32,153 nt of DNA from Desulfobulbaceae bacterium (GTDB taxonomy: Bacteria > Desulfobacterota > Desulfobulbia > Desulfobulbales > Desulfobulbaceae), in assembly GCA_030613515.1 (NCBI GenBank), contig JAUWLT010000006.1:1-32153 (forward strand), written 5' to 3'. Shown here piece by piece: positions 1,303 to 19,227 of this stretch. The position numbers and the translations under genes were made by a program. The notes under the pieces are model-generated. The model made no database searches. It was not told the DNA's origin and worked only from the letters and a program-made list of their open reading frames with translations. Each line of letters starts with the position of its first letter. Within the stretch, counting starts at the first letter, position 1.

Positions 1303-1878
1303 TCAGAATTCTATGTAATCGTAGTCGACTACCTGATTATCGTTGTCTCCAATGGAGTTTTTTCGAAAATAGACCATCTTATCAAAAGTCGGCTTGTAGA
1401 TAAAAATGACAGAGTTTTCTTTTTTTACAAACCCTTCTGCCTGATATAGAGGGTAAGACCTGAAAAGAATCAGATTGTCTTTGTACTCCCAGATGATCAC
1501 ATTCGCAGTGCCTGCCAGGCTCTGCGTGGTTGTTTTCCGTTCTTCAATTTTTGGTCCCAGTCCAGTAACCATGTTGTTTACGAAATCATCATGTTGCAGT
1601 TGCTCAATCGGTCCATCATAATAATGAATCACTGCGATGAGCTGCTCCTCAAAGAGCTTAAACTCTATACGGTCAGATCCCTGTTTTGGATGATCCAAAC
1701 GAAATAGGGTCACATGAAAGGAATCCTCTTCAACAAAGTCGACCTCAGGGAAATGTTTCTCAATGACTGGAAATCGGCTGTTCCAGGGGATACCGTTGTA
1801 CCCAGCCACATCTTGGCCATATGCCGTACCTGCACAGGGAAAAAGAAAAAACAAAATATAGAAAAATTTTCGTTTCAT
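1303..1878 (-). CDS. Hypothetical exported protein with Sec signal peptide
   Basis: 191 aa ORF, hydrophobic N-terminal signal (MKRKFFYILFFLFPCAGTAYG), same strand as and 39 nt downstream of the torD-like gene. Confidence 0.7.
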   Translation of the reverse strand: MKRKFFYILFFLFPCAGTAYGQDVAGYNGIPWNSRFPVIEKHFPEVDFVEEDSFHVTLFRLDHPKQGSDRIEFKLFEEQLIAVIHYYDGPIEQLQHDDFVNNMVTGLGPKIEERKTTTQSLAGTANVIIWEYKDNLILFRSYPLYQAEGFVKKENSVIFIYKPTFDKMVYFRKNSIGDNDNQVVDYDYIEF

Positions 1879-1916
1879 TCCAACGAATCAAAATCTTCTG
1901 TTGAATAAAATAGTTC

Positions 1917-2522
1917 CTACTCACTGGCAATGAACTGTGAGGCAAGCATGGCCATCTCACGGTAAAAGGGTACATTCGCCTTTGCTGCAACTTTATCCAG
2001 AAAAGGTGGTGCCCAGGCAAGTAGATGCTCTGTCAGAAATCGTTGCTTAATCCGGCTCAGATTTTCAGCGAGTTACATATCATCATCGGCCTGAGCCTGC
2101 GCCAACCGTTCTTCAAGTTTCTGGACAAACTCAAGTTCAGCAGCAATATGATCCGGCATACCACCAAAAGACGATTGATAGCTCAGGCCGGTGGCCTCAA
2201 TAAACTTCTTGACTGCTACAGTATCCGCTCCCCATAGTTTCCCGTAATCCCCGTCCTCACGGACACGGTGAACCGATTCGTGGGGCGATATAAATGAACC
2301 CGGGCCAATGAAAAGACCGGTATATTCCACTGCCAGCTCTTCAAGCAGTTCGTTGGCCGGCCGACTATAAAAATCATCGCCCAGATCAACCCCCAACTCC
2401 TCAAGGACTCCCCTGAAACGGGGAGTCCTGAGATCTTCCAGAAAGTCAGAGGTGACTTCCCGGGCAAAAATTCGAGCCAGGAACCCGTATACGCTACCGA
2501 CCTGACTGTTCTTCTCTTCCAT
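1917..2522 (-). pseudogene. TorD/DmsD-family molybdoenzyme chaperone, interrupted by in-frame TAA
   Basis: ORF 2073-2522 matches a TorD-like pattern (PANELLEELAVEYTGLFIGPG...SPHESVHR). The same frame continues after TAA(2073-2075): LAENLSRIKQRFLTEHLLAWAPPFLDKVAAKANVPFYREMAMLASQFIASE*, a typical TorD C-terminus. Confidence 0.8.
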
Positions 2523-2552
2523 CTGTCACCTCATCTTCAGTTTTGTTTCTGC

Positions 2553-5084
2553 TTATGCTTTACTGATGGTTACTACTTCATCCATAAAGCGATGTTGACC
2601 GCTGATGGGATCAGGGGCATTAGCAATCAGCCAGTTGGGAAGAACGCCATAGGTGTCCCACCATTTCAGCTTCAGATCCGGGTCATTATCGCTTGCCATG
2701 ATGGATTTTTTACCGGACGCATAGCGGCCCGACTCTGTCCTGCCAAGATGAAAGGAGATGGCAATGGCGCCGGGAACTATCATTTCATTTACATATGCCT
2801 TAATGGACACCTCACCAATTTTTGAGGTGAGCTTTATCATCTCGCCATCTTTAATACCCAGCGAAGCGGCGGTTTTTGAGTTGATCCAGGCCGGATTGTC
2901 ATGGAACATCTCGGTGAGCCACTTGCAATGGGTGGAACGTGAATGTATCTGCACCGGTACTTTGTAGGTGGTCAGTATTAATTGATTCTTTGCCAGACCC
3001 TCATGTTCCGGGATTGGTTTCCAGCTTGGCAGCGGGGCAAACTCTTTGTCCTTTAACAGTGCTGAATAGAGTTCAAAATAACCGGTTTTGTTCACCTTGT
3101 CGGGTTTGAACCCCTTGTACACCTTATCGCCGATCTTCTGACCGACATAGCCTTTGTAGCTGTAGTGCATCTTATGGTAACCGTGCTTTTTGGCCTCTGC
3201 CTCGTCTTTGGCACCGGATTTTTTCCAGTTCCAATAGACACCGGTTGCCTCATCAAAGATAACACTCTCTTTCTGCAGATCGGCCGCTTTGATCTCTTTT
3301 TTATGACGGAAATAGGCAGGTTTTGCCTTGGGATCGTGATACACACCATGTTTTTTCATGTATTCGAAGGCGCCGCCGGGCAGGTCTTTGAGGGTTGGAG
3401 TCTTTTCGCAGGATTTCTGGACAAATTCTTCCATGGTATTAAAGCCAAGGGGCATGTCCATTCGATTGGCCAGGTCACAGAGTATGTCGCTGAAATTTCT
3501 ACACTCGCCAAGCGGTTCCACTGCCGGCTGTCGTAATTCGTATTCAGCAACCTGATTTGGTGAAACATTTCCATCCCAGTCCCAACGCTCAAGATAGGTC
3601 GTATCGGGCAGGATCAGGTCGGCCAGTCGACTGGATTCATCGTAGACAATATTTGAGGTAACCGTAAAGGGCATCAACTTCTCATCTGAGAGGACGTCGA
3701 TGTTCTCCTGGCATTCGCCGTTCACGTAGACCGGGTTGTAACAGTACCAGAAATAGATGTCGGGCCGACCATGTGAGCCGTCCTTGATCATCTTTAAAAC
3801 TGATTGGCACTCGCCATGGGTTGGGAGAGCAGAAATCGTACCATTGGTAATTTTAAGCTTCTTGGCTTTAGGTTTGACCTTGGGGCCTTTGGGATATTTC
3901 CATGACGGAGCAACTCCCGGACACCTGCCTCCTGGATTATCGATATTACCGGTGATCATGGCCAGCATCTGCGCTGCCCGTTCACCGTCGGTTCCATTGT
4001 AATGAGCAATCAGGCCACGATAGCTGATAACCACCGCTGCCTTGGCTTTGGCAAACTCCCTGGCGTATTTGGCAATATTTGTTGCAGCCACCCCACTGAT
4101 TTTCTCCGCCCATTCCGGAGTATACTGAGCCAGATGTTTTTTCAGGGCGGAAATTTTTTCATCCACCGGCACATTTACATTTTCAGTGGCTCTGATAAAG
4201 GTAAAAGCATCACGCTTGTAGAGATTTTCCTGCATGATCACATTACACATCGCCAGGATGACGGCCAAGTCGGTGCCGGGGCGTACCGGTTCCCATTTGG
4301 TTGATTTTGCGGCAGTATAGGACAATCTGACGTCAAAGGTGATCAGCGGAACATTGCGTGCTACCTTGGCCTTAATCAGTCGCTGTGAAGTTGGAATATG
4401 ATTGGTATGGGCCTCAAGTACACCGGAACCGAAGTTCAGCACATAGTCGGTGTTATCGAAATCCCAGTTGTCGTAATGTTTGCCCCAGGTTAGTTCCTGG
4501 GCTGTCCATTTCCCTCCCTCGCAGATGGAGGTATGGCCGGAGATGGTCTTGGAACCATAGGTCCCCATGAATACCGTTTTCGGCAGCTTGGAGGAACTGC
4601 CCTTGGCCCGACCATAGTGGTACATGAATTTTTCAGGATGGCCATCATCCCGCAGTTTTTTCATGCGGGCGGCGAGATCGGTCAGGGCCTCGTCCCAGGA
4701 GATACGTTTATATTTGCCATCTCCTCGTTTACCGACGCGTTTAAGAGGATAGAGAATCCTGTCCGGAAAGTAGACCTGGTTGACACCTGCCTGCCCTTTG
4801 GCACAGATCTTACCCAGACTGCGGATCGAGTTGGGCTGGCCTTCAATCTTGACTATCCGTCCATCTTCTACATAAGCGATTTTCGGATCTCTGGTCACAC
4901 AATTAAAACAAATAGTGGGAACGCCTTTTCTTTCCTTCCCTGTTACAGGAGAAAAATCGCGTCCTCCATCAGCAAGCTCAATGGAACCGGCGAGAACATT
5001 TGATGTTATACCCTTACCGGCTCCTATCAGTACACTGCTGGCCGCAGCCAGTTTCAACACACTACGGCGGCTGAGTTTTTTCAT
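2553..5084 (-). CDS. Tat-exported molybdopterin (bis-MGD) oxidoreductase catalytic subunit, PsrA/PhsA/TtrA-like
   Basis: 843 aa; Tat signal SRRSVLKLAAAS; Fe-S motif region TICFNCVTRDP...GKICAKGQAG; PDRILYPLKRVGKRG; candidate Mo-ligand Cys in GHTSICEGGK; molydop-binding C-terminal domain. Confidence 0.9.
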   Translation of the reverse strand: MKKLSRRSVLKLAAASSVLIGAGKGITSNVLAGSIELADGGRDFSPVTGKERKGVPTICFNCVTRDPKIAYVEDGRIVKIEGQPNSIRSLGKICAKGQAGVNQVYFPDRILYPLKRVGKRGDGKYKRISWDEALTDLAARMKKLRDDGHPEKFMYHYGRAKGSSSKLPKTVFMGTYGSKTISGHTSICEGGKWTAQELTWGKHYDNWDFDNTDYVLNFGSGVLEAHTNHIPTSQRLIKAKVARNVPLITFDVRLSYTAAKSTKWEPVRPGTDLAVILAMCNVIMQENLYKRDAFTFIRATENVNVPVDEKISALKKHLAQYTPEWAEKISGVAATNIAKYAREFAKAKAAVVISYRGLIAHYNGTDGERAAQMLAMITGNIDNPGGRCPGVAPSWKYPKGPKVKPKAKKLKITNGTISALPTHGECQSVLKMIKDGSHGRPDIYFWYCYNPVYVNGECQENIDVLSDEKLMPFTVTSNIVYDESSRLADLILPDTTYLERWDWDGNVSPNQVAEYELRQPAVEPLGECRNFSDILCDLANRMDMPLGFNTMEEFVQKSCEKTPTLKDLPGGAFEYMKKHGVYHDPKAKPAYFRHKKEIKAADLQKESVIFDEATGVYWNWKKSGAKDEAEAKKHGYHKMHYSYKGYVGQKIGDKVYKGFKPDKVNKTGYFELYSALLKDKEFAPLPSWKPIPEHEGLAKNQLILTTYKVPVQIHSRSTHCKWLTEMFHDNPAWINSKTAASLGIKDGEMIKLTSKIGEVSIKAYVNEMIVPGAIAISFHLGRTESGRYASGKKSIMASDNDPDLKLKWWDTYGVLPNWLIANAPDPISGQHRFMDEVVTISKA

Positions 5085-5150
5085 GGTTTTAATCCTCCTT
5101 ATATCTATAAAAAAACGATTATTTTCTACCAGCGTTATTTCAAGCTCGTC

Positions 5151-6017
5151 CTACTCAACTATATCGCGATACTCAGCCACTTTTTGTTCCTTGGGAAAGG
5201 AATAGTTTGCCAGTACCCCATCAGGGTCAATGTAAAAGATGTTGGGCATAGTTTTGGCCTGCGGCATCAAGGTGCTCTTGTCCCTGTTCTCTAAGAGTTT
5301 GAATTCTTTTGCAAGTTTGGCTACTTCACTGTTCGGATCATTGAGGTCACCAAAGATTCTGGCTCCGGGCGCGCAGGTATTGACACAGGCAGGGGTAATA
5401 CCTGCTGCAACCCGGTGTTCACAACCGGAACATTTAACAATGGAATGCTTTGTTTTGTCCTTGCCCGACATCCTGCGCATGTCATAGGTCCTGGCCCCAT
5501 AGGGACAGGCCTCAATACACTTGCCGCAACCGGTACAGGCATCATTATCAAAAAGAATCATACCGTCCGGTCTTCTATAGGTTGCCCCGCCCCTGTAGCG
5601 GATTTTTTTACCCTCAGGGGTTACAAAAACGCGACGATCTTTGGGATATTCAGGACACACCTTGACACAGGGAGGAACGGTCATATTGCCCACCTGTTCC
5701 GTGCCTTCGCAATGATTGCAGCGCCTGGGAATAAAGTCACGTTTTGTATCAGGGTAACTGCCGGATATTACCTGCTTAATCACTGTTCTAAAAGATCCTA
5801 AGGGTACGTCGTATTCAGACTTGCAGGCCACTGTGCAGGCCCGGCAACCGGTACAAAGCCGCAGATCCATAATCATGACCCAGTGGGGAGCCTTTGTTTC
5901 CGTTGCAGCCTCCACCGGTTTTGTTTTCAACATGGTAGCCGAAGCCAGCCCGGCTACCAGTGCAGCACCGGTAACTCCAAGCATCTCTCTCCGTCCGTTT
6001 TTTTCGCCTAACTCCAT
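5151..6017 (-). CDS. Tat-exported 4Fe-4S ferredoxin-type electron transfer subunit (PsrB/PhsB-like)
   Basis: Several CxxCxxCxxxC motifs (CTGCRACTVAC, CTGCGKCIEACPYGA), N-terminal GRREMLGVTGAAL. ATG at 6017 with GGAGG SD preferred over the 6170 start of the ORF track. Confidence 0.9.
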   Translation of the reverse strand: MELGEKNGRREMLGVTGAALVAGLASATMLKTKPVEAATETKAPHWVMIMDLRLCTGCRACTVACKSEYDVPLGSFRTVIKQVISGSYPDTKRDFIPRRCNHCEGTEQVGNMTVPPCVKVCPEYPKDRRVFVTPEGKKIRYRGGATYRRPDGMILFDNDACTGCGKCIEACPYGARTYDMRRMSGKDKTKHSIVKCSGCEHRVAAGITPACVNTCAPGARIFGDLNDPNSEVAKLAKEFKLLENRDKSTLMPQAKTMPNIFYIDPDGVLANYSFPKEQKVAEYRDIVE

Positions 6018-6096
6018 GACTTCCTCCCTGGTTAAGATTGATCCCTTTGTGGGATAGCTGCCCAGTTCCGGGACTGTAGACAGCCCGAAATATCTT

Positions 6097-7509
6097 CTAC
6101 TGTTCTGTTTCTGATTCAGCCGTCTCTGATTCAGCGACAAGGGGCTCCACCTCATCAAGCACGGTTTCAAAACTGGTCAGGGCATCATCAATAAGCATGA
6201 TGGAATATTTTTTGTTATGGATCCCGTTGCCGAATTCAACGATATCAAGACTCTTGCGTCCCTTCTCCATCAGAGCTTCAAACTCGCTGATCTGTTCGGC
6301 ACTCAACTGGTTTCTTGCTTTTTCCAGCAGATCTTTTACGCGCTGTTCTGTTTCCTTGCAAAAGGCAACTTCGCCCTGGACCTCTTTCTCCCAGTCGGCG
6401 AGCATCTTGTCATGATCCGGGCCATGGCAATCAACACATGTTTTGGCGGCACCTCGTACAACAGTCTCGCCACGCAGCTTTTTCTCCTCCTGGTGACAAC
6501 CCATGCAATTGGTTTTGGCTGCAAACATGAGACTCGGTGTAGCAGGCACATCACCACGCCGGGCTCCAACAAGCAATTGCTGCTGGTAACTATGATGATC
6601 CGGATGACAACTCCGGCAGGCAAGACGGGCCGGTTCCAGGAACTCGATTTCCTTATGTTGAATTTTCTGATGACAGTCAAAACAGGCGGCTTTCTGTTTG
6701 GCCACATGCTCGGCATGCATCAGCTTCATGTCGTCATCTTTTTTTAAGATTTCAGCATTGCTATGACAATTATCGCAACCACCAGGTATAAGAGAAGCAT
6801 CACCTATAATCAGCTGATAGTGACAGCTCTGGCAAGACACGCCGGCTTTCTCCAGGCTCTGGTGGGTGATAACCTTTTCATCGGGATTCAACGGCGCATC
6901 TTTTTTCTGCTGTTGCAACGGGGTGGTTGGAATGGCGTGGCAGAGGTTGCAGGCGGCCTTGCCCTTGTTGAATTCACTATGCTTGAAATGGCAAATATAA
7001 CACTGCTCAGCAGGTGCCTCAAAATGCTTGTCATCACTGGCTTTGACGTGACAGGTGGTGCAGTGCATCTCCTGGCCCGGAATTATTTTCTCATAATGGG
7101 CTTTATGGGTGAATGTGACTTTTTTTTCTTTACCGTAGTCCAGCTTTTTTTCCATGAATTGCTCTAACGGATGGCATTTGCTGGTAGTGCAGGAGATATC
7201 TGCAACATGGGTCGCCCGCCGCACCTCCTTGTCATCACTGGACAGATAGGTAAAGAGCTGGCCCAGCCCTTTAAATTTGGCATGCAGGGTCATCTTTTCG
7301 CCAGGCGCATAATGGCAATCCACACAGGCAACCTCTTCTTTGCCGGCCTTGCCATGCTTGGAGGTCTGCCAGGATGTGTAGGGCTTGTCCATGATGTGAC
7401 ACTTGGTGCCGCAGAAGGATGGTTGTGCGGTGTATGACTCAACCGAAAATACTCCGATAACAGCAATAAAAATGATCAAAACAATGATCAGTAAAATGCC
7501 ATTTTTCAT
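6097..7509 (-). CDS. Membrane-anchored multihaem c-type cytochrome (NapC/NirT-like N-terminus), 12 candidate haem motifs
   Basis: One N-terminal TM helix; ten CXXCH, one CX3CH (CGTKCH) and one CX4CH (CTTSKCH) counted in the translation. Confidence 0.92.
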   Translation of the reverse strand: MKNGILLIIVLIIFIAVIGVFSVESYTAQPSFCGTKCHIMDKPYTSWQTSKHGKAGKEEVACVDCHYAPGEKMTLHAKFKGLGQLFTYLSSDDKEVRRATHVADISCTTSKCHPLEQFMEKKLDYGKEKKVTFTHKAHYEKIIPGQEMHCTTCHVKASDDKHFEAPAEQCYICHFKHSEFNKGKAACNLCHAIPTTPLQQQKKDAPLNPDEKVITHQSLEKAGVSCQSCHYQLIIGDASLIPGGCDNCHSNAEILKKDDDMKLMHAEHVAKQKAACFDCHQKIQHKEIEFLEPARLACRSCHPDHHSYQQQLLVGARRGDVPATPSLMFAAKTNCMGCHQEEKKLRGETVVRGAAKTCVDCHGPDHDKMLADWEKEVQGEVAFCKETEQRVKDLLEKARNQLSAEQISEFEALMEKGRKSLDIVEFGNGIHNKKYSIMLIDDALTSFETVLDEVEPLVAESETAESETEQ

Positions 7510-7556
7510 CTAAACAGGCTCCTTTTTGTACAAAACACCCTCAATTATACATTTGT

Positions 7557-7572
7557 TGCACAAAGGATGCCA
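7557..7572 (-). promoter_or_regulatory. Sigma54 (-24/-12) promoter of the cytochrome/Fe-S/Mo operon
   Basis: Minus strand TGGCATCCTTTGTGCA versus consensus TGGCACN5TTGCW; GG-GC spacing exact, 2 mismatches; about 48 nt upstream of the cytochrome ATG. Confidence 0.75.
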
Positions 7573-7628
7573 AAGGAAAACTGCTGGAAATAAAAGGGGA
7601 AATTTATTTAATGCGGGGAGGGTTGTAT

Positions 7629-7658
7629 AAAAAATAGACACTCATCTGTCTATTTTTT
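7629..7658. terminator. Hairpin at the end of the response-regulator gene
   Basis: AAAAAATAGACA-ctcatc-TGTCTATTTTTT: 12-bp perfect stem with flanking A/T tracts on both strands. Confidence 0.65.
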
Positions 7659-9039
7659 AAGCAGAGGCGATTTTTTTCCTCAAGGTCATTCGATTAATGC
7701 CAAGCAGGTTGGCAGCCTGGACTTGGTTGCCGTTACAGAGATCAAGCGTTTTTTTGATTAAAATCTGCTCGACTTCGGATATCAGATGTCGGTAGGGACG
7801 TGATTCTCCTCCTTTGATAAGTTTGTCGATCTGTTGACCAACGATTTTTTCAAAATCACCTGCAGGTTCCTCCATTTTCTGAAGAATGCAGTCCTCAGCT
7901 GTAAGAATATTAGACTTGACCAGGACAATGGCCCGGCGAATGGTATTTTCCAGTTCCCGAATATTGCCCGGCCAGGAGTAATTGGAAAGTTTTTTCAGGG
8001 CTTCATCGCTGATACCTTCTACAGGCGGAGATACCTGGCGACCGTAACGGGAAAGAAAGTAGAGAATCAGATCCGGCAGGTCTGTTATTCGCTGTCTAAG
8101 TGGCGGAATTGCAATGGTCAGTACGTTAATCCTATGCAACAAGTCAGGTCGAAACCGGCCTTCAGCGGCCATTTGTTCAACATTTCTGTTGGTGGCGACA
8201 ATAAGCCGCACATCAGTTGTTAACTGCTTATTACTGCCCAGTCGCTCGAAGGTACCGTCCTGGAGGACACGTAGGACTTTAGCCTGGGCCGCAAGCGGCA
8301 GTTCACCGATCTCATCCAGAAACAGGGTTCCTTTATCACACTGCTCAAAGCGGCCGATTCGTTGCTTGGCAGCACCGGTAAAGGCCCCTGTTTCGTAACC
8401 AAACAGCTCACTTTCCACCAGTTCATAAGGCAGGGAAGCACAGTTCACCACCATGAACGGTGCCTCCTTACGCGCACTGTGCTGCCAGATGGCCCGGGCA
8501 GTCAGCTCTTTACCCACCCCGGTCTCACCGGTAACGAGAACCGGTAAATCAGATCCAGCCATCTGGCCGATCTTCTTGCACATGTTCAAGACTTCCGGGC
8601 TGGAACCGACAATACATTCCTGGTTTTCTGTTGCATCATTCCACTGTTTGCCGCAACCGCAATGCAGTTTTGCCTGCATCCTGCTGGAGCTAAGAGCCTT
8701 GTCGATTACCCGGCGCAGTTCATCATTGTCAAAGGGCTTGCTCACATAGTCAAAGGCCCCGTCTTTCATAGCCTGCATGGCGGAAGTGGAATCTGCAAAG
8801 GCGGTCATCATGATTATCGGTAGATGAGGATGACCTTCCTTTATGATCGCAAGTGCTTGCAATCCATCCATGCCCGGCATACGGATATCCATGAGCACAG
8901 CATTAGGTTCATCTCCGTCAACAGCCTGCACGGCCTCTTTGCCGTTTTTTGCGGTACGGATTGAGTATTCATCGCCAAAAGTCCGCTCAAAAGCATAACG
9001 GACCGCTTTTTCATCATCAACAATGAGCAGGGTTGTCAT
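7657..9039 (-). CDS. NtrC-type sigma54-dependent response regulator
   Basis: REC domain (MTTLLIVDDEKAVRYAF...VLMDIRMPGMDG), AAA+ motifs (GETGVGKE, ESELFGYETGAFTGA), C-terminal Fis-type HTH. ATG at 9039 overlaps the kinase by 23 nt. Confidence 0.92.
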   Translation of the reverse strand: MTTLLIVDDEKAVRYAFERTFGDEYSIRTAKNGKEAVQAVDGDEPNAVLMDIRMPGMDGLQALAIIKEGHPHLPIIMMTAFADSTSAMQAMKDGAFDYVSKPFDNDELRRVIDKALSSSRMQAKLHCGCGKQWNDATENQECIVGSSPEVLNMCKKIGQMAGSDLPVLVTGETGVGKELTARAIWQHSARKEAPFMVVNCASLPYELVESELFGYETGAFTGAAKQRIGRFEQCDKGTLFLDEIGELPLAAQAKVLRVLQDGTFERLGSNKQLTTDVRLIVATNRNVEQMAAEGRFRPDLLHRINVLTIAIPPLRQRITDLPDLILYFLSRYGRQVSPPVEGISDEALKKLSNYSWPGNIRELENTIRRAIVLVKSNILTAEDCILQKMEEPAGDFEKIVGQQIDKLIKGGESRPYRHLISEVEQILIKKTLDLCNGNQVQAANLLGINRMTLRKKIASA

Positions 9040-10456
9040 AAGGCAAGACCAAGATAAATGTAGTTCCTGTGTTTTGACTTGAGACGATATCAAGCCGGCC
9101 GCCATGCTGTTGTGCAACATTCCAGGCCACAGCCAGGCCCATGCCGGTGCCGTCTTCTTTCGTGGTAAAAAAAGGATCAAAAATATGTTTTAAATGTTCA
9201 TCGCTGATGCCGCAGCCGGTATCGGCTATTGTACAGCGGAGTTCTTTGCCGTCAACACCGGTTGTAATGGTCAGTTGCCCACCGCCTTCCATAGCCTGCA
9301 GAGCATTCAATATACCGTTCATCAGGATCTGCCTGATTCCCGATGCGTCAACCAGCACCGGGATAATATCCTGTTTCAGCTCCTTGGTAATGATGACCCC
9401 TGATTTTTCAATTTTCGGCCGAGTAATGGCCAAAACATCTTCAACAAGGCTGTTTATATCCGTATGGGTGACCGCAATATCCGATTGTCGGGCCGACCGG
9501 AGAAACCTTGTGACGGTGTGATCAATGCGGTCAAGTTCAGCACGAATCACCTCCAGGTCTTCACCCTCCAGGGCTTCCTCCTGCTCTCCGGCCCGTTGAA
9601 TCAGCATCTTGATCGAAGTCAGTGGATTTTTGATCTCATGGGCCAGGCCGGTAGAAAATTCACCAAGGGCGTAGAGCTTTTCCGTACGAACCAAGTTTTC
9701 CTGGGCTGCCGTGATTTCATCCACCAACTCCTTAAGCCGGCGGGACATAGTATTAAAGGTGACACTCAATTCACGGATTTCCCCCACACCGGACTCACGG
9801 ATTTCCATACCAAGATTGCCCTCGCCAACCTTATGGGCCGCCTGGTTGAGCAGCAGCACCGGATAGAGCAGGGCTCGAGCCATCCACAGACCGGCCAGTG
9901 AACCGATAACGGCTATAACGGCGGTCACCGCCCATACCTTACGCTTCGAGGAGGAGATTGTTCTGATCAGAGGCTCTACTGAAACACCAAGACGAAGATA
10001 GCCGACAACGCCTATCTTATTGGAAGAAATCGGGACAACCAGATCCATGGGCGCGAGACTACTGCTTTGTTCAACATCCCGCAAAAATCTCGGCTGTTCA
10101 CCTGCATATTCGACTAAATCAACAGGTTTTCGCTGCATAGGTATTTTTTCTCTGGCCAGTATTTTTTTACCCTGTTCATTGTACAACTCACCGTAGACCA
10201 GAAAGACATCCCTTGCCGCCAGATAGGACGTGATAAGTGCATGGAGCGTATAATCCTCTTCATAGAGCAGGGGTTCAAGCACCTGGCGGGACATGATTTC
10301 ACCAAGTTGCAGGGCTCGCACACGCAGGTCCTGTTGGAGAATACGTTCTTCATCACGCAAGACAAGGGTCGCCACGGTAACAGCCGTGACTAGGACGATA
10401 ATAACGATGGCCAGCGACAGCCGTATGGCTATCCGTTCATGAAATTTGACTGCCAT
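9017..10456 (-). CDS. Membrane sensor histidine kinase (periplasmic sensor, HAMP, HisKA, HATPase)
   Basis: GLAHEIKNPLTSIKML H-box, DTGCGIS and FFTTKEDGTGMGL boxes. Confidence 0.92.
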   Translation of the reverse strand: MAVKFHERIAIRLSLAIVIIVLVTAVTVATLVLRDEERILQQDLRVRALQLGEIMSRQVLEPLLYEEDYTLHALITSYLAARDVFLVYGELYNEQGKKILAREKIPMQRKPVDLVEYAGEQPRFLRDVEQSSSLAPMDLVVPISSNKIGVVGYLRLGVSVEPLIRTISSSKRKVWAVTAVIAVIGSLAGLWMARALLYPVLLLNQAAHKVGEGNLGMEIRESGVGEIRELSVTFNTMSRRLKELVDEITAAQENLVRTEKLYALGEFSTGLAHEIKNPLTSIKMLIQRAGEQEEALEGEDLEVIRAELDRIDHTVTRFLRSARQSDIAVTHTDINSLVEDVLAITRPKIEKSGVIITKELKQDIIPVLVDASGIRQILMNGILNALQAMEGGGQLTITTGVDGKELRCTIADTGCGISDEHLKHIFDPFFTTKEDGTGMGLAVAWNVAQQHGGRLDIVSSQNTGTTFILVLPYDNPAHC

Positions 10457-10484
10457 GGGCTATCTCGGGCTCAGGCTAAAAAAA

Positions 10485-11354
10485 TTACTCATGGATCTGC
10501 TTACGTAATAAAATGGCAGAACGGTACAGTTCCGGTTCAGGCAGAACAAAACCATCCATACCAAGGCTGTGCAGAACCTTCAAGCCTTCGGGATCATCGT
10601 CCATGGACAGTAACACCTTGAGCAATTTCCTTTTGAGTTTAACTGATAAGCCGGAAGGGACAACCACCGGCGGCATGCCGAATTCTTCTGAAATCTCGAT
10701 AATTTTCAGGCGGTCGGTAAAAGAATTCGTTTGTTTGCGCAGGGCATCAAATATAAGACTATCCACGGCCGCTCCTTCTGCGAGCCCGGTGGCCACGGCT
10801 TCAATGGATTTATCATGGCTTTCCGTATAAAAAATTTTCTGAAAAAAATCCGTGGTCACCAAACCCATCTGATTAATTCTGGCTGTCGGATAGATATACC
10901 CGGTCAGGGAAAGGGGATCGGTAAAGGCAAAAACCGAGTCCTTCAAATCTGCCAGTGAACGGGCCGGATTCTCCTGTCGGGCGATAATATAAGAACGATA
11001 GCTCGTCTTACCATTCATGACAGGTACAGCCAGAAGTTCAAGGCCAAACGCCTTTCTTCCCGAGAGATACCCTCCGGTGCAGGTAAAGGCCATCTGTACC
11101 TTTTCCCTGGCCAGCAAATCGTTGATTTCTTCATAGGTACGACGCTGTTTAAGCGAGACGGATGTTCTCAGTTTCCCTGACAGGTAATTTTGGAATTCGG
11201 TAAAATGGACCAAGGTCGGGGCCGGAGAGGCCATTGCCGAGACGGCAAAGTAAAAGGTTGCCTTACTATTGCCGGACTGGGCCGAAGAGATTCCGGGCAG
11301 CGCGGATACTATAAATATTGTAACGCAAAAGTGCAAAAACGATCTGATTCTCAT
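10485..11354 (-). CDS. PhnD-like periplasmic substrate-binding protein, likely sensor partner of the kinase
   Basis: Signal peptide; YLSGKLRTSVSLKQRRTYEEINDLLAREKVQMAFTCTGGYL...DLKDSVFAFTDPLSLTGYIYPTARI pattern of the PhnD family; precedes the HK/RR pair on the same strand. Confidence 0.85.
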   Translation of the reverse strand: MRIRSFLHFCVTIFIVSALPGISSAQSGNSKATFYFAVSAMASPAPTLVHFTEFQNYLSGKLRTSVSLKQRRTYEEINDLLAREKVQMAFTCTGGYLSGRKAFGLELLAVPVMNGKTSYRSYIIARQENPARSLADLKDSVFAFTDPLSLTGYIYPTARINQMGLVTTDFFQKIFYTESHDKSIEAVATGLAEGAAVDSLIFDALRKQTNSFTDRLKIIEISEEFGMPPVVVPSGLSVKLKRKLLKVLLSMDDDPEGLKVLHSLGMDGFVLPEPELYRSAILLRKQIHE

Positions 11355-11430: not shown

Positions 11431-11458
11431 TTGACAAATGCAATGGCAGCCTTATTCT
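11431..11458 (+). promoter_or_regulatory. Sigma70-type promoter for arsR-like gene
   Basis: TTGACA-16 bp-TATTCT upstream of the arsR start. Confidence 0.45.
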
Positions 11459-11475
11459 ATCGTTAGTTGGCGATA
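11458..11475. promoter_or_regulatory. Candidate ArsR operator
   Basis: Inverted repeat TATCG-N8-CGATA immediately after the putative -10 element. Confidence 0.35.
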
Positions 11476-11500
11476 TGTGAATATAGCGAGGATCTATCCG

Positions 11501-11905
11501 GTGAAAACATTTATTCGTGTAATGAAAGCTCTTTCCGATCCCAACAGGGTACGGGTACTCAAGCTTCTTCAGGCCGGCGAGCTCTGTGTCTGTGAAATTC
11601 AAAATGTTCTGGAACTTGCACAGTCCACTGTGTCCAAGCATATGAAGATTCTGGAGGATGCCGGGCTGGTGGACAGAAAACGGCAGGGAACCTGGATGAT
11701 TTACTCTCTGGCGGATGGCAGTGAGTCGGTGTACGCAAAAATCATGCTTGCTGAACTGGGACATTGGCTGGATGACGATAAAGAGCTGGATGCGATGCGC
11801 AAGGCCTTACCTGAGGCGGTTGTTCAGCGCAATTGTACGGTAAAAAAACTAGAGGAAAAAAATGGAACCGATTCAACCAATCGTTTGCGACTGTCAAAAA
11901 AATGA
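11501..11905 (+). CDS. ArsR-family metalloregulator
   Basis: wHTH with MKALSDPNRVRVLKLLQAGELCVCEIQNVLELAQSTVSKHMKIL; ELCVC metal-site motif. GTG start at 11501 with SD preferred over the 11438 ORF start. Confidence 0.9.
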   Translation: MKTFIRVMKALSDPNRVRVLKLLQAGELCVCEIQNVLELAQSTVSKHMKILEDAGLVDRKRQGTWMIYSLADGSESVYAKIMLAELGHWLDDDKELDAMRKALPEAVVQRNCTVKKLEEKNGTDSTNRLRLSKK

Positions 11906-12953
11906 ATCCGGCCAAACGAGTGAAATAAAAAAAGTGAATATGGGCAAGGCCGCAATTATCGGTCTGCTTGGCCTTGGACTCTGGTATGTGATTTACAAAC
12001 AACTGGAGCCTTTTTCTTACTTTTTTGCCTATTCCCTGCTTGGCCTTGAAAAGGGGAGTCATTTCGGTGATGCGGTCCAGTTTTTTGTCTATGACACGCC
12101 CAAGGTCATGATGCTGCTGACGCTCATTGTTTTTGTAATCGGCATGATCCGTTCCTTTTTCACCCAGGAACGTACTCGCAAGTATCTTGCCGGAAAACGG
12201 GAGTCCGCAGGCAACGTAATTGCATCCTTGCTGGGCATTGTCACCCCGTTTTGTTCCTGTTCGGCAGTACCGCTTTTTCTTGGTTTTGTTCAGGCGGGGA
12301 TACCGCTTGGTGTGACCTTTTCTTTTCTTATTGCTGCTCCAATGGTCAATGAAGTTGCCCTGATTCTGCTCTATGGTTTGCTTGGCTGGAAGGTGGCTGC
12401 CATGTACCTGGGATCGGGTCTGCTGATTGCTATAACAGCCGGCTGGATTATTGGTCGTTTTAAGCTGGAACACTGGATTGAAGACTGGGTACAGGAACTG
12501 CGGGCCGGAGAGGCCTTGGTGATAGAAAAAAAGCTTACCTTGGCTGACCGGATAGAACATGGACGCGAGGCTGTGCGTGACATAGTCGGCAAGGTCTGGA
12601 TCTACGTGGTTGCCGGTATTGGTGTGGGTGCCCTCATTCATGGCTATGTACCGGAGGATTTCATGACCTCGATTATGGGCAAGGATGCCTGGTGGTCGGT
12701 TCCGGCTGCAGTTGTGGTCGGCATTCCCATGTATTCCGGAGCAGCCGGAATGATCCCCATTGTCGAGGCACTGTTGGGCAAGGGTGCGGCCCTGGGGACC
12801 GTACTGGCTTTTATGATGAGTGTTATTGCCCTGTCCCTGCCTGAGATGGTTATTTTGCGCAAGGTATTGAAGCCGGGTCTGATTGCTGTCTTTATTGCTG
12901 TTGTGGGCACGGGTATTCTTTTTACCGGTTACCTGTTTAACCTGGTTATCTGA
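11862..12953 (+). CDS. DUF318/ArsP-type permease
   Basis: Multi-TM; TPFCSCSAVPLFLGFVQAGIPLGVTFSFLIAAPMVNEVA motif; overlaps the arsR 3' end by 44 nt. Confidence 0.85.
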   Translation: MEPIQPIVCDCQKNESGQTSEIKKVNMGKAAIIGLLGLGLWYVIYKQLEPFSYFFAYSLLGLEKGSHFGDAVQFFVYDTPKVMMLLTLIVFVIGMIRSFFTQERTRKYLAGKRESAGNVIASLLGIVTPFCSCSAVPLFLGFVQAGIPLGVTFSFLIAAPMVNEVALILLYGLLGWKVAAMYLGSGLLIAITAGWIIGRFKLEHWIEDWVQELRAGEALVIEKKLTLADRIEHGREAVRDIVGKVWIYVVAGIGVGALIHGYVPEDFMTSIMGKDAWWSVPAAVVVGIPMYSGAAGMIPIVEALLGKGAALGTVLAFMMSVIALSLPEMVILRKVLKPGLIAVFIAVVGTGILFTGYLFNLVI

Positions 12954-13031: not shown

Positions 13032-13069
13032 TTCGACAATTCCCGATAAGGTTCGACAATCTTGTCGAA
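13032..13069. promoter_or_regulatory. Candidate enhancer-binding-protein site (UAS)
   Basis: TTCGACAA at 13032-13039 plus perfect inverted repeat TTCGACAA-TC-TTGTCGAA at 13052-13069, about 85 bp upstream of the sigma54 promoter. Confidence 0.55.
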
Positions 13070-13153
13070 TATTTCATTGGCAGAGAGGACTTCGCTCTCT
13101 CGGTAATCATATAACATACTGAAACTATATATTTAAATTTTATTTCTCATGGT

Positions 13154-13169
13154 TGGCATGTGTGTTGCT
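13154..13169 (+). promoter_or_regulatory. Sigma54 promoter of EF-hand/ZraP-like gene
   Basis: TGGCATGTGTGTTGCT: one mismatch to TGGCACN5TTGCW. Confidence 0.85.
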
Positions 13170-13235
13170 TTAAAGAGAATAAAGCAATAACAAAACGTCA
13201 TAACGACAACCAATTAACTCTTTGGAGGTATAACC

Positions 13236-13940
13236 ATGAAGATGAAAAAAACACTGACCGCAGCTTTGATTTTTGGAGCATTCAGCCTGACCACCGGCCT
13301 GGTAATCGCAGATGATCAGCCTACGCGGGGACCGGTTCCCTTTGCCGCCTGGGATACAGACGGCAGTGGAGCCATTGATGAGCAGGAGTTTAACACTCTG
13401 CGTGAGCAGCGTCAGGCAGCTGTCAAGGCAAGTGGCCGCCAGGGAAAAAATATGGCCAATGCACCGACCTTTGCTCAGATAGACAGTAACGGTAACGGTC
13501 AAATTACAGCCGAGGAACTGTCGGTCATGCAACAGGGTATGGGCAAAGGACGTAATGGTTCGGGAAAGGCTATACAGCAGGGCCAGGGCAACAAACAATT
13601 CAAGGGCAAAGGCCATTATGGTTCAAGACAGGCCATGAAGGGAAAGATGGGACCACGCTACCAGGCAATGGATGCAGAGACCAGGCAAAAATACGATGCA
13701 TTTTTTGCATCAACCACTGAACTGCGCAAAGAAATGGCTGCCAAGCGGGCAGAAAAACAGGCCGTCATGCGCTCTGCCGATCCTGATCCTGATCAGGCTG
13801 CACAGTTGACCCGGGAGCTGCTTGCACTGCGCAGCGAGATGAAGGCTCAGGCACAAGAGGCCGGCATTGAGATGGCTCCTGGTTACGGCCGTGGAAAAGG
13901 CTATGGTGGTAAAGGGCAAGGATGTAGAGCACGTGGGTAG
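13236..13940 (+). CDS. Exported EF-hand protein with C-terminal ZraP/Spy/CpxP-like helical region
   Basis: Signal peptide; EF-hand loops DTDGSGAIDEQE and DSNGNGQITAEE; C-terminal TRQKYDAFFASTTELRKEMAAKRAEKQAVMRS...LTRELLALRSEMKAQAQEAGI resembles ZraP-like periplasmic chaperones. Confidence 0.8.
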   Translation: MKMKKTLTAALIFGAFSLTTGLVIADDQPTRGPVPFAAWDTDGSGAIDEQEFNTLREQRQAAVKASGRQGKNMANAPTFAQIDSNGNGQITAEELSVMQQGMGKGRNGSGKAIQQGQGNKQFKGKGHYGSRQAMKGKMGPRYQAMDAETRQKYDAFFASTTELRKEMAAKRAEKQAVMRSADPDPDQAAQLTRELLALRSEMKAQAQEAGIEMAPGYGRGKGYGGKGQGCRARG

Positions 13941-13966
13941 ATTCTGAAGATATCATATCCACCTTA

Positions 13967-13993
13967 TCCCGGACAGTATAGAATTGTCCGGGA
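13967..13993 (+). terminator. Stem-loop after EF-hand/ZraP-like gene
   Basis: TCCCGGACA-gtatagaat-TGTCCGGGA, 9-bp perfect stem. Confidence 0.5.
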
Positions 13994-14095
13994 TTGTCAT
14001 TGCAGCTTGGATCCATCTATGGGTCAAGTCAGCAGAATAACCAAATTAGTTGTCCCCCCCCAGCTAATTTATGATATTAACAGGAGGAATTTATT

Positions 14096-14488
14096 ATGAA
14101 AAAAATGTTTTTTATAAGCCTTGCAATCTTATTTCTTTGTCCGGTTATGGTCAATGCCGGCGAGCTGGAAAATATAAGGATTGCTGTTGCGGCCAATGGT
14201 AAATCTGCACAAGCATCTGTAAGCAATATGGCTGCTAAATGTCCTCATTATCTTATATTTAATAACAAAGGGAAATTGATAGAGGTTGTTGACAACCCTT
14301 ACAGTGATGCAAGTAGAGGTGCCGGGCCGTTAGCGGCAAATTTTCTTGCCCGGAGAGGTATTTCCATTGTAATTGCCGAAAATTTTGGTACGAAAATGGG
14401 TAATACACTGGAAAACAAAAGTATGACTCATTTTGAGTTTAAAGGGGTCGCTGATAATGCTGTAAAAAAAGTTTTAAAATTAAATTGA
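14096..14488 (+). CDS. Exported NifX/NafY-like (dinitrogenase FeMo-co biosynthesis domain) protein
   Basis: Signal peptide MKKMFFISLAILFLCPVMVNA followed by IRIAVAANGK...HYLIFNNKGKLIEVVDNPY...ARRGISIVIAENFGTKMGNTLENKSM, the PF02579-like pattern. Confidence 0.75.
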   Translation: MKKMFFISLAILFLCPVMVNAGELENIRIAVAANGKSAQASVSNMAAKCPHYLIFNNKGKLIEVVDNPYSDASRGAGPLAANFLARRGISIVIAENFGTKMGNTLENKSMTHFEFKGVADNAVKKVLKLN

Positions 14489-14557
14489 GGGTTTCTTTTT
14501 TGATTATTACGAGACCATTCATATTAGTTCAAGCTGCTTTAAAAAAAGGGGAAAATT

Positions 14558-15229
14558 ATGGCTTTGGTTCAGATTGATAATGTTTCAAGAATTTACCAGA
14601 CAGGTGAGGTGCAGGTAAAAGCCCTGCAGGATGTAACCCTTTCCATTGATGAAGCATCCTTTGTTTCTTTTGTAGGACCTTCAGGAAGCGGAAAAACAAC
14701 CATGTTGAACCTTATCGGTTGTCTCGATAAGCCGACACAAGGGAAGATAGTTGTGGACGGTGCTGAGGTGGATGGTTTTGATAGAAGACAGAGCGCAGCA
14801 TTCAGAGGGGATACCCTTGGATTTATCTTTCAGGCATTTAACCTCTTTCCTGTGCTTACTGCCTATGAAAACGTCGAATATCCGCTTGTGATGATAAAAA
14901 ATGAATCGGTATCAAAACGAAAGGAAAAAGTGCTGAACGTTCTTGAATCAGTAGGGATGCTTGATCAGAAAGACAAATTTCCAGACCAGCTTTCAGGAGG
15001 GCAGAAGCAGCGGGTCGCAGTTGCGCGGGCTCTTGTGACACAGCCAAAACTTGTTCTTGCAGATGAGCCTACTGCAAACCTGGATAAAAAATCCGCTGTG
15101 AATGTCATTCGTCTAATGCGCAACATGCGGGATGAATTCAATACTACATTCATCTTTTCCACACATGATCCCGGAGTCATGAAAGAAGCAGAGGTTATTT
15201 ATACATTAGAAGACGGAAGACTTGTGTAA
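14558..15229 (+). CDS. ABC transporter ATPase, LolD/MacB type
   Basis: Walker [10 protein letters not shown], signature [15 protein letters not shown], Walker [13 protein letters not shown]. Confidence 0.93.
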
Positions 15230-15259
15230 CCAAAGAAAAAATAATGAAGGAGAAATTTA

Positions 15260-16513
15260 ATGATTCGAATTTTTAAAATAGCTCTGCGGAACTTGATGCG
15301 ATATAAGCGAAGAACTTTGCTGACCGCCATGCTGATTACACTCGGCGTGTTGATGGTTATCCTTTTTTCAGGACTTGCGGGCTCATTCAAGGCAATGATG
15401 ATCGGCCAGATTACTGATTCCAATATTGCCCAGATGCAAATTCACAAAAAGGGTTATGTCTCTTCTATTGATACCAGTCCGCTACACCTGACTATTAACC
15501 AAAAAGGCTACAAAAAGGTCGAAAAAATACTCAAAGAGAATCCTGATGTTGAGGCTTTTGCACCAAGAATAAAGCTAAGCGCTATGTTAAGCAATTATAA
15601 AGAAACAACCAACATCCGCTTAAATGCAATTGATCCGAAAAAAGAAAACAAAGTTTGCCCCAATGTCAGTGAACGTATGAAATTCAGTGGCAGCGAAGTG
15701 CCGGATATTTTGCTCAAACCTGGAGAAATCATTATTCCTACAAAACTGGCCAAAGGACTGAAGATTAAAATTGGAGACGCTGTTGTGCTCGTAGCCAACA
15801 ACAAGGATGGCTCTGTAAACGGCCTGAATTTTACTGTAGCAGGAATTATTGATACCCTGATGGGTCCGCAGGGCAAAGAGGGATATATGCATATAAAGGA
15901 TGCTCAATCCCTGCTTCGTATGGAAAAACCTGAAATCATAGAGATTGCCGTGCGGATAAAAAATTTCGACAAGCTTGATAATGTGTATTCAGACCTGAAG
16001 TCAACTCTGGGGGAAGTTAAAAATAAAAAAGGAAAACCTGCTTTTGAAATACATACATGGGAAAAACTTTCTCCCTTTTCCAATATAGCAAAAATGATCG
16101 ATTTGATGACTATAAGCATGAAATCTACCATGATCGCTATTGTACTTATAAGTATTTTAAACGTTATGATGATGTCTGTTTACGAAAGAGTCAGAGAAAT
16201 CGGAACCATGGCCGCCATTGGAACCTCGCCAGGCAAGATAATGGGACTGTTTTTGGCGGAAGGATTATCCCTTGGGGTTATCAGTGTCCTGGCCGGCAAT
16301 ATTATCGGGATTTTCGGAATCTATATTTTAAACATTTACAAGATCAGGTTTGCTTTTGGCAGGATGGATAATATTTTATTGTCTCCGACAATCAGTTTTT
16401 CAGAGCTTGCCTGGGTGTCGGTAATAGTTATATTGGTTTCGGTCTTTGCCAGTCTGCAGCCTGCATACAAGGCCTCCAGGATGGAACCGGTTGATGCTCT
16501 GGGGCATGTATAG
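15260..16513 (+). CDS. ABC transporter permease, FtsX/LolE/MacB type
   Basis: N-terminal FKIALRNLMRYKRRTLLTAMLI, large periplasmic domain, C-terminal three-TM FtsX region ending EPVDALGHV. Confidence 0.92.
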   Translation: MIRIFKIALRNLMRYKRRTLLTAMLITLGVLMVILFSGLAGSFKAMMIGQITDSNIAQMQIHKKGYVSSIDTSPLHLTINQKGYKKVEKILKENPDVEAFAPRIKLSAMLSNYKETTNIRLNAIDPKKENKVCPNVSERMKFSGSEVPDILLKPGEIIIPTKLAKGLKIKIGDAVVLVANNKDGSVNGLNFTVAGIIDTLMGPQGKEGYMHIKDAQSLLRMEKPEIIEIAVRIKNFDKLDNVYSDLKSTLGEVKNKKGKPAFEIHTWEKLSPFSNIAKMIDLMTISMKSTMIAIVLISILNVMMMSVYERVREIGTMAAIGTSPGKIMGLFLAEGLSLGVISVLAGNIIGIFGIYILNIYKIRFAFGRMDNILLSPTISFSELAWVSVIVILVSVFASLQPAYKASRMEPVDALGHV

Positions 16514-16577
16514 GAAGGGAATTCCGAAACATTAAAATAAAGGCCACCCTAAGGTTAATTGATTTAAGAGGTGAATT

Positions 16578-17309
16578 ATGAAGAAAATATTACTGGCAGT
16601 GTTTATGTCGCTGTGCATAGCTGCACCGGTGTTTGCTCTTGATGGCAATGAAATGCTCAAAAAAGTTGACCGTAACCTTAACCCGGATAGTTATGAACTG
16701 TATAGGAAGCTGATAAATATTGAACCGGACGGCTCAAAAAAAGAGTTTGTCATGTACGCTGTCAAAAAGGGCAAGGAAAAGATGGCATCTGTCTTTTTGT
16801 CTCCAGCCAGTGAAAAAGATAGAAGTACCTTGCGGATCGGGGAAAACATGTGGCTTTACATCCCTAATGTCGGTAAACCGATACGCATAACCAGTCTGCA
16901 GTCCGTGACAGGAGGGGTGTTCAACAATGCGGATATCATGCGCCTTGATTACAGTGCGGAATACGACTGTGAAAAGGTTGAAGAGACAGACAAAGGATAT
17001 ATCCTTCATCTTAAAGCAAAGACAAATGCCGTTGCCTATGACAGAGTAAAAATGTGGGTTCATAGTGAAAGTCTTCTTCCGGACAAAACAGAATGCTTCG
17101 CTTCATCGGGAATGCTTATTAAAACTCTATATTTTAAAAAGGTCCAGGATTTTGGCGGCGGTATTGTTCGCCCTGCCGTAATCGAGACAGACAGCCCTCT
17201 TCATCAAGGGTATAAATCGGTAATGATTTTTGCAAAGATGAAAGCAAAAGATCTGTCTGACGAAGTTTTTACCCTTAATTACTTGTCCAAAATCAATGAA
17301 CTCAGGTAG
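16578..17309 (+). CDS. Outer-membrane lipoprotein-sorting (LolA-like) protein
   Basis: Signal peptide; ENMWLYIPNVGKPIRITSLQ and LDYSAEYDCEKVEETDKGYILHLKAK patterns. Confidence 0.8.
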   Translation: MKKILLAVFMSLCIAAPVFALDGNEMLKKVDRNLNPDSYELYRKLINIEPDGSKKEFVMYAVKKGKEKMASVFLSPASEKDRSTLRIGENMWLYIPNVGKPIRITSLQSVTGGVFNNADIMRLDYSAEYDCEKVEETDKGYILHLKAKTNAVAYDRVKMWVHSESLLPDKTECFASSGMLIKTLYFKKVQDFGGGIVRPAVIETDSPLHQGYKSVMIFAKMKAKDLSDEVFTLNYLSKINELR

Positions 17310-18612
17310 TTCTTTCTTTTTTCTGCTTGTTATCGGCCTGTTCTTACTTCTGTCCTGTAACCTGCAGGCAGCAGATGATGAATTCATCTTTGAGCTGGAT
17401 GAGATCGAAAAAAAACCGTTGGAATGGGGCGGTTATGCCGAACTGAAATTTGAGCACCTGGACATCAACCAGGGGGCAGCGCTTACAAGACTGAATTTTA
17501 CCGGTGAACCGCCGACCACCATTGATCGCTTCAGCCCCAGTCTGCAGATTGGCGGCTCTTATGTGACCGGTATAACCAGTTTTAACTGGCTACTCAAGGC
17601 GGCCGGGCAGCAGGACAACTTCGGCTGGATCGACTTTGCCGATATCTACGAGGCCTATGGACGGGTGAAACCAACGGATCAAGCCACCATAGACCTGGGA
17701 AAACAAGCATATAAATGGGGAAAAGGCTATGCCTGGAATCCGGTAGGTTTTATCAACCGGCCCAAGGATCCTAATGACCCCCAGGAAGCGCTTGAAGGTT
17801 ATATTACCGGAGAGCTGGACCTGATCAAGAGTTTTGCTAACCTTGGTTCCCTGCACAATATTGCCCTGACAACGGTTCTCCTGCCGGTGTATGATGGCAT
17901 CAACGATGATTTCGGCGCTGAGGACAATATCAACCTGGCAACAAAGCTTTATCTCCTGTACCTGGACACAGACATTGATTTCATCTTCTACACCGGAAAC
18001 AGCAGGTCCTCGCGATTCGGAGCTGATTTTTCAAGAAATATCACGACCAATTTTGAAATTCACGGAGAGGCAGCTTATCTCTCCTCTGAAAAAAAGCTGA
18101 CTCTTCTGCAAGATGGAGAAACCCGGCTGGAAGGAGATGAGGTGTTCAGGACTCTGCTCGGCCTTCGCTATCTGACGGATAACGACCTGACTGCCATTAT
18201 CGAGTACTATTATAACGGCAACGGGTATAGTGAAGATGAACGAGCCCGTTTTTATCGACGCGTTGCCGATGGTGCAATACAGCTGGACAATTTGGGCAAT
18301 GACTCCCTTTTGCATCAGGCCCGGGAGTTGAGCCTGCGTGGCTACGGCAAGCCCTTTGTGGGACGCAACTATCTCTACGCCAGATTCACCCTGAAAGAAC
18401 CCTTTAATATCCTCTACTTTACTCCCGGCCTGACAGCCATCGTTAACCTGGACGACCAGAGCGCGTCATTCACCCCGGAGCTCGCCTATACCGGCTTCAC
18501 CAATTGGGAAATGCGACTGCGTTTTTCCCTGCTCACCGGTGGTTCCTTCACTGAATATGGTGAAAAACAGACCAGCAATAAGGTAGAGCTCCGCCTCCGC
18601 TGGTTTTTCTAA
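17296..18612 (+). CDS. Outer-membrane beta-barrel protein
   Basis: Signal peptide, alternating amphipathic strands, terminal aromatic residues ...RLRWFF; overlaps the preceding gene by 14 nt. Confidence 0.8.
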   Translation: MNSGSSFFFLLVIGLFLLLSCNLQAADDEFIFELDEIEKKPLEWGGYAELKFEHLDINQGAALTRLNFTGEPPTTIDRFSPSLQIGGSYVTGITSFNWLLKAAGQQDNFGWIDFADIYEAYGRVKPTDQATIDLGKQAYKWGKGYAWNPVGFINRPKDPNDPQEALEGYITGELDLIKSFANLGSLHNIALTTVLLPVYDGINDDFGAEDNINLATKLYLLYLDTDIDFIFYTGNSRSSRFGADFSRNITTNFEIHGEAAYLSSEKKLTLLQDGETRLEGDEVFRTLLGLRYLTDNDLTAIIEYYYNGNGYSEDERARFYRRVADGAIQLDNLGNDSLLHQARELSLRGYGKPFVGRNYLYARFTLKEPFNILYFTPGLTAIVNLDDQSASFTPELAYTGFTNWEMRLRFSLLTGGSFTEYGEKQTSNKVELRLRWFF

Positions 18613-18662
18613 TTATTTTCTCCCTGCACTTTGCCTGAACAGTAAGGTGCGCATCAGATTTT

Positions 18663-18690
18663 TTCGACACTGTCTGCAAACCACGACAAT
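18663..18690. promoter_or_regulatory. Candidate UAS half-sites
   Basis: TTCGACAC and CACGACAAT, CGACA cores 19 bp apart, about 100 bp upstream of the sigma54 promoter at 18793; resembles the arrangement at 13032-13069. Confidence 0.35.
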
Positions 18691-18792
18691 ATTATAAAGT
18701 ATTTTTAATTGTTACCTGATTGATAGAATTTCTTGCTTGTTAACATAGCATAATATATTGTTTTTTCAGCATATTTTGTTTGGCATGCTTTC

Positions 18793-18808
18793 TGGCACAT
18801 CTGTTGCT
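18793..18808 (+). promoter_or_regulatory. Sigma54 promoter of second EF-hand gene
   Basis: TGGCACATCTGTTGCT: complete match to TGGCACN5TTGCW. Confidence 0.9.
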
Positions 18809-18876: not shown

Positions 18877-19227
18877 ATGAGAATGACAAAAGCTTTTTCC
18901 ACCGCAATGATTATTGTCGCTTTCAGCTTAAGCGCAGGCTTGGCTCATGCCAAAAAAGTTTCCACCAGAGGTCCGATTTCCTTTACAGCCTATGATGCCG
19001 ATGGCAATGGTACTATTTCCGAACAGGAATTTAACACTACCCGTGAGCAACGGCAGACAGCAGTCAAGGAGAGTGGCCGCATGGGACAGGGTATGGCCGG
19101 TGCTCCCTCCTTTGCTGATGTTGATACTGATAAGGATGAACAGATTTCTGCCCAGGAACTCCAAACCATGCAACAGCAACAGCAGGAGAATCGCGGTATG
19201 GGCCGTGGTCAGGCGAAAAGACAGTAA
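18877..19227 (+). CDS. Exported EF-hand protein, short paralogue of 13236-13940
   Basis: Signal peptide; EF loops DADGNGTISEQE and DTDKDEQISAQE; high similarity to the first paralogue across the EF-hand region. ATG 18877 follows TGAGGT SD. Confidence 0.82.
   Translation: MRMTKAFSTAMIIVAFSLSAGLAHAKKVSTRGPISFTAYDADGNGTISEQEFNTTREQRQTAVKESGRMGQGMAGAPSFADVDTDKDEQISAQELQTMQQQQQENRGMGRGQAKRQ

Follow-up and report, generated by a model that had tools for sequence, protein, structure and literature searches.

The two EF-hand genes of the window (the whole stretch of 32,153 nucleotides analysed here, from a Desulfobulbaceae bacterium) probably belong, judging from sequence comparison, to a small sigma54 regulon under a dedicated NtrC-type regulator that is encoded on another contig, C244, together with a sensor kinase and a DUF4405 protein.

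Promoters and upstream sites of the EF-hand genes

The features of the window on which the analysis turns are:

13032..13039, + strand: upstream half-site TTCGACAA of the gene 1 array, kept in 5/6 orthologues
13052..13069, no strand assigned: perfect palindrome TTCGACAATCTTGTCGAA of gene 1, putative dimer site of an NtrC-type activator, kept in all orthologues
13154..13169, + strand: sigma54 promoter TGGCATGTGTGTTGCT of EF-hand gene 1, GG-N10-GC, kept in orthologues
13236..13940, + strand: EF-hand gene 1 (234 aa), with signal peptide, two EF-hand loops and C-terminal ZraP/Metal_resist domain (PF13202, PF13801)
14096..18612, + strand: genes between the EF-hand genes, encoding NifX-like, ABC ATPase, FtsX/MacB permease, LolA-like and unassigned 438-aa proteins
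18663..18670, + strand: half-site TTCGACAC upstream of EF-hand gene 2
18682..18698, + strand: decayed palindrome CACGACAATATTATAAA of gene 2, left arm kept and right arm lost; array match 14/18
18793..18808, + strand: sigma54 promoter TGGCACATCTGTTGCT of EF-hand gene 2, GG-N10-GC
18877..19227, + strand: EF-hand gene 2, a short form without the ZraP domain

The first-pass annotation had placed a sigma54 promoter and CGACA-core repeats before each gene, with cores 19-20 bp apart and about 85-100 bp from the promoter. Its coordinates for both promoters and the repeats were right, and both promoters have the GG-N10-GC form. We measured a core spacing of 20 bp for gene 1 and 19 bp for gene 2, with 85 bp and about 104 bp, respectively, from the end of the site to the promoter. 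The second TTCGACAA copy before gene 1, at 13052, is the left arm of the palindrome TTCGACAATCTTGTCGAA, which is the sole occurrence of TTCGACAA-N0-6-TTGTCGAA in the 2.67 Mb assembly. Half-site and palindrome together scored 18/18, while the best of 3,000 Markov sequences scored 15.

The claim that both genes carry similar upstream sites held, with gene 2 as the weaker of the two examples. At gene 2, CACGACAA at 18682-18689 is the remaining arm of the palindrome, and the array scored 14/18 (p about 0.0007 in Markov sequences of the same composition). About 1% of the segments of the window reach this score, and roughly one in three of these is gene 1's own site. The gene 2 site is best read as a degenerate, decayed copy of the array. 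Since the bare sigma54 consensus was not enriched in the window (at two mismatches, 10 sites seen and 10.9 expected), the promoter calls rest on position and conservation. ACGACAA is also present in the 5′ leaders of both genes (about 13203 and 18847), and the DNA directly upstream of gene 1 (11438-12953) carries an ArsR-like regulator, assigned by eye, followed by an ArsP/SaoE-like permease.

The two genes are paralogues, as annotated (53% over 115 aa). Gene 2 corresponds to the EF-hand part alone; the ZraP-like Metal_resist domain is found at the C-terminus of the gene 1 product only. This domain passed the Pfam cut-off (33.1 against 29.2), and the protein scored 30.2/200 bits (E 5e-7) with the curated ZraP model, below the cut-off and outside the ZraP family as that model defines it. 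Three relatives have the long form (G002, G030 and G055) and three the short form (G009, G069 and G137).

Conservation of the sites in orthologues

Allowing a single mismatch, the palindrome TCGACA-N4-TGTCGA was present in 6/6 orthologues examined, including intact copies at the short-form genes of G009, G069 and G137. In all six, a sigma54 promoter lay 91-113 bp past the start of the palindrome. The half-site was found 20-21 bp upstream of the palindrome in G030, G055, G009, G069 and G137 and was absent in G002, giving the whole array, TCGACA-N13-15-TCGACA-N4-TGTCGA, in 5/6 orthologues. The remaining intergenic DNA is far less alike than the sites, which therefore look selected.

Distribution of the array and its promoters

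We searched 258 genomes of the order for CGACA-N14-16-CGACA-N4-TGTCG, using the reversed pattern as a control; a class-level repeat of the search covered the same 258 genomes. The array occurred in 80 genomes and the control in 19, mostly with one to four array copies per genome. It recurred upstream of a gene for a DUF4405 protein, which is followed by genes for a small secreted protein, a kinase and an NtrC-type regulator. Genomes with this kinase had the array in 60/67 cases, against 20/191 of those without it (p = 4e-33), while the reversed pattern gave p = 0.59. Leaving out every site that shares a contig with the kinase or lies at most 20 kb from it gave 39/67 and 20/191 (p = 4e-14). These p values ignore kinship among the genomes and hence overstate their independence. 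In a second collection of named genomes, which partly overlaps the first, the palindrome lay at most 3.5 kb upstream of the kinase at 39/57 loci, among them loci from Desulfuromonadales and a Thiohalocapsa. The dedicated enhancer-binding protein and small regulon proposed by the first-pass annotation are thus supported by comparison: the sites are kept, and the array tracks one kinase/regulator pair.

G009 has its EF-hand gene and kinase/regulator operon as tail-to-tail neighbours, with a separate array and promoter for each. In G022, G042 and G052, the array found past the regulator lies ahead of a protein with DxDGDG calcium loops (the protein itself was read in G022). The other targets adjoining arrays include EF-hand, ZraP, DUF4920 with PepSY_TM, DUF2202, TetR-MMPL and DUF1104-like genes, as well as an ABC/LolA operon homologous to window positions 14096-18612, whose homologues lie near the same array in three relatives (sites in L112, L117 and L119). 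Most of these products have periplasmic or membrane functions. Several distal sites fell within open reading frames or had no promoter; matches inside open reading frames of draft genomes were not counted as regulon members. G069 (99% complete) is an exception: its EF-hand gene has both the array and the promoter, and no orthologue of the kinase or regulator was found; G002 and G055 also lack both orthologues, and each of these assemblies is about 89% complete.

The motif was expected to be enriched near other sigma54 promoters, and this was borne out: sigma54-like promoters, scored with either TTGA or TTGC at -12, cluster 80-160 bp past the array (about 17/73 unique arrays), falling to 0-1 per 40-bp bin beyond 160 bp and to almost none elsewhere in the next kilobase. 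This matches the enhancer placement of about 80-200 bp upstream that is expected of an NtrC-type regulon. The GG-N10-GC promoter is present at both window genes and 6/6 orthologues, and is not found at every array. Four sites (L241, L244, L246 and L240) have TTGA in place of TTGC at the expected distance. With lone palindromes included, the offsets group around 91, 101, 107-113 and 124 bp, a spacing of roughly one turn of the helix (11-bp period, Rayleigh), although this period was chosen after the data had been seen and some of the sites are homologous.

Candidate regulator and kinase

The relevant features of contig C244, which lies outside the window, are:

L109:7381-8703: candidate NtrC-type regulator
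L109:8889-10433: partner sensor kinase
L109:10932-11780: DUF4405 cytochrome-b-like membrane protein
L109:11834: palindrome at the kinase operon

The regulator has a receiver domain, an AAA+ domain with GAFTGA and a Fis-type HTH, as befits an NtrC-type activator. Its assignment draws on the recognition region WVQTRAAExLGISERVLRYKM, which is near-identical in six regulators; the closest match in this genome is the C244 regulator (78%) and the next activator reaches 50%. The kinase operon of this genome carries the palindrome, but we found no recognisable sigma54 promoter there. The other full array of the genome (L109:13141) points towards a TetR gene, whose promoter is sigma70-like.

The sensor domain of the kinase was modelled with a tandem-CACHE-like fold (mean pLDDT 86, pTM 0.74). 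A fold search with it returned tandem-CACHE domains at weak E values, and a sequence search of the PDB with this domain gave nothing meaningful. Two cysteines in the sensor are nearly invariant and are lost together in the kinases L296 and L303, a joint loss that suggests they form a disulfide. At least one of these two kinases is from a Desulfuromonadales genome. The signal may be the redox or metal state of the periplasm.

Alternative activators and origins of the sites

The window encodes an NtrC-type activator of its own:

7657..9180, − strand: local NtrC-type response regulator with a different recognition helix; not the proposed activator

Its presence in the window makes it a candidate for activating the EF-hand genes, as partner of the PhnD-like/kinase pair beside a molybdopterin oxidoreductase. 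The first-pass annotation had doubted this on finding no motif upstream of the cytochrome promoter, and we agree: there is no TTCGACAA near the promoter-like site of the cytochrome gene (7557-7573), the recognition helix NQVQAANLLGINRMTLRKKI is unlike that of the array-associated regulators, and across the order the array follows another kinase, which together make control by the local regulator very unlikely. The neighbourhood (1303-11354) sets the PhnD-like protein, kinase and regulator beside NapC/cytochrome, Fe-S, molybdopterin oxidoreductase and TorD-like genes, with the promoter-like TTGGCATCCTTTGTGCA at 7557-7573 (− strand) before the cytochrome gene; the best model match of the oxidoreductase is PhsA-like and below the cut-off. 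The PhnD-like protein, kinase and regulator (7657-11354) resemble AioXSR/ArxXSR/ArrXSR (PMC5908839), but this set is not the regulator of the EF-hand genes. We give similarly little credence to the palindrome being an operator of the neighbouring TetR repressor (L109:13343) at an incidental distance from sigma54 promoters. This genome, G131 and G141 do each have a full array ahead of a TetR gene; however, those TetR promoters have their own AAACAAACGTTTGATTT-like palindrome beside the start, most arrays adjoin no TetR gene, and the fixed, phased distances to sigma54 promoters fit an enhancer. That the conserved palindromes are REP-like or terminator hairpins is suggested by perfectly mirrored arms extending a further 5-15 bp in 13/124 cases (about 0.5 expected), yet most palindromes have no such extension, and the low copy number, the invariant core with its offset half-site and the position in front of sigma54 promoters leave this explanation hardly credible. 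The extended arms (L264:919, L123:9419, L257:4271 and others) copy the spacer towards the half-site; their symmetry recurs while their sequence does not.

A further alternative is that the C244 system is ZraSR, which responds to zinc and envelope stress, with an operator that has diverged. The two share several features: an NtrC-type regulator, a HisKA kinase, a ZraP-like target and a small autoregulated regulon, which in Escherichia coli comprises zraP, zraSR and mgtA (PMC7657598). The ZraP-like domain of the gene 1 product speaks for this identity, as do a ZraS kinase core, one of the closest solved structures to the kinase, and the plain ZraP genes with an array in one related family (G060, G073 and G250). 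Against it, the C244 regulator scored 367 bits where the ZraR cut-off is 760, the kinase scored 148 where the ZraS cut-off is 479, and the best matches of both are other NtrC families. The C244 system also differs in its kinase sensor, DUF4405 partner and EF-hand targets. Most canonical ZraP homologues, including the C194 copy of this genome, have no array, and many of them do have sigma54 promoters, which argues that the system is not ZraSR and implies another activator for those genes. Identity with ZraSR is therefore improbable, and in most lineages the EF-hand/ZraP and plain ZraP genes appear to be under different activators. At many of the canonical homologues in the order (L041-L064 and L189-L228), a sigma54 promoter stands about 160-250 bp before the matched stretch and there is no CGACA array.

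Proposed regulon

Comparison shows the conservation of the sites, the placement of the promoters, the co-occurrence with the kinase and regulator, and the conserved recognition helix. We infer regulator binding, phosphorylation and activation, and a periplasmic redox or metal stress signal. In the proposed mechanism, the kinase would read a periplasmic signal through its dCache-like sensor domain with the paired cysteine and phosphorylate the C244 regulator. This would bind the palindrome TCGACA-N4-TGTCGA as a dimer, together with the accessory half-site about 20 bp away, and remodel sigma54 polymerase at GG-N10-GC promoters about 90-125 bp downstream. Both EF-hand genes would be switched on as part of a small regulon of mostly secreted or membrane proteins with its activator encoded elsewhere. 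Autoregulation of the kinase operon would follow in most relatives, where the same palindrome lies upstream of it. Envelope stress, as put forward in the first-pass annotation, or metal stress would be a plausible signal, one that fits the periplasmic and membrane proteins recurring beside arrays.

EfhP of Pseudomonas aeruginosa, an EF-hand protein of a Gram-negative bacterium, is reportedly linked to stress responses. Searching the literature for DUF4405 alongside a kinase, and for sigma54 two-component control of EF-hand proteins, turned up no description; within the literature searched, the kinase operon and the regulon appear to be undescribed. The sigma54 regulons of Desulfovibrio vulgaris, which belongs to a different order than the array-bearing genomes, have been mapped and include those of DVU1419 and DVU3381 for envelope stress (Kazakov 2015, PMC4641369). 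According to the text of that paper, they likewise have two-component sigma54 activators with mostly one to four target operons, and one tested site has three half-sites, like the array; the CGACA motif does not appear in that text, the motif logos being figures.

A fuller reading, which we offer tentatively, is of an undescribed two-component sigma54 regulon that Desulfobulbales-type bacteria share with some Desulfuromonadales and purple sulfur bacteria. In it, the redox or metal state of the periplasm may be reported by the cytochrome-b-like DUF4405 protein and a dCache kinase with a disulfide, leading to induction of calcium-loop (EF-hand, DxDGDG) and ZraP-like proteins through a helically phased three-half-site enhancer. 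The sigma54 networks of this sulfur-cycling order are little mapped, and the proposed regulon turns an orphan motif into a testable system with a named candidate activator, kinase, operator and target list. The uncharacterised DUF4405, DUF4920, DUF2202, DUF1104-like and EF-hand/ZraP proteins would be brought under a single signal, and the operator pattern is specific enough for direct genome annotation.
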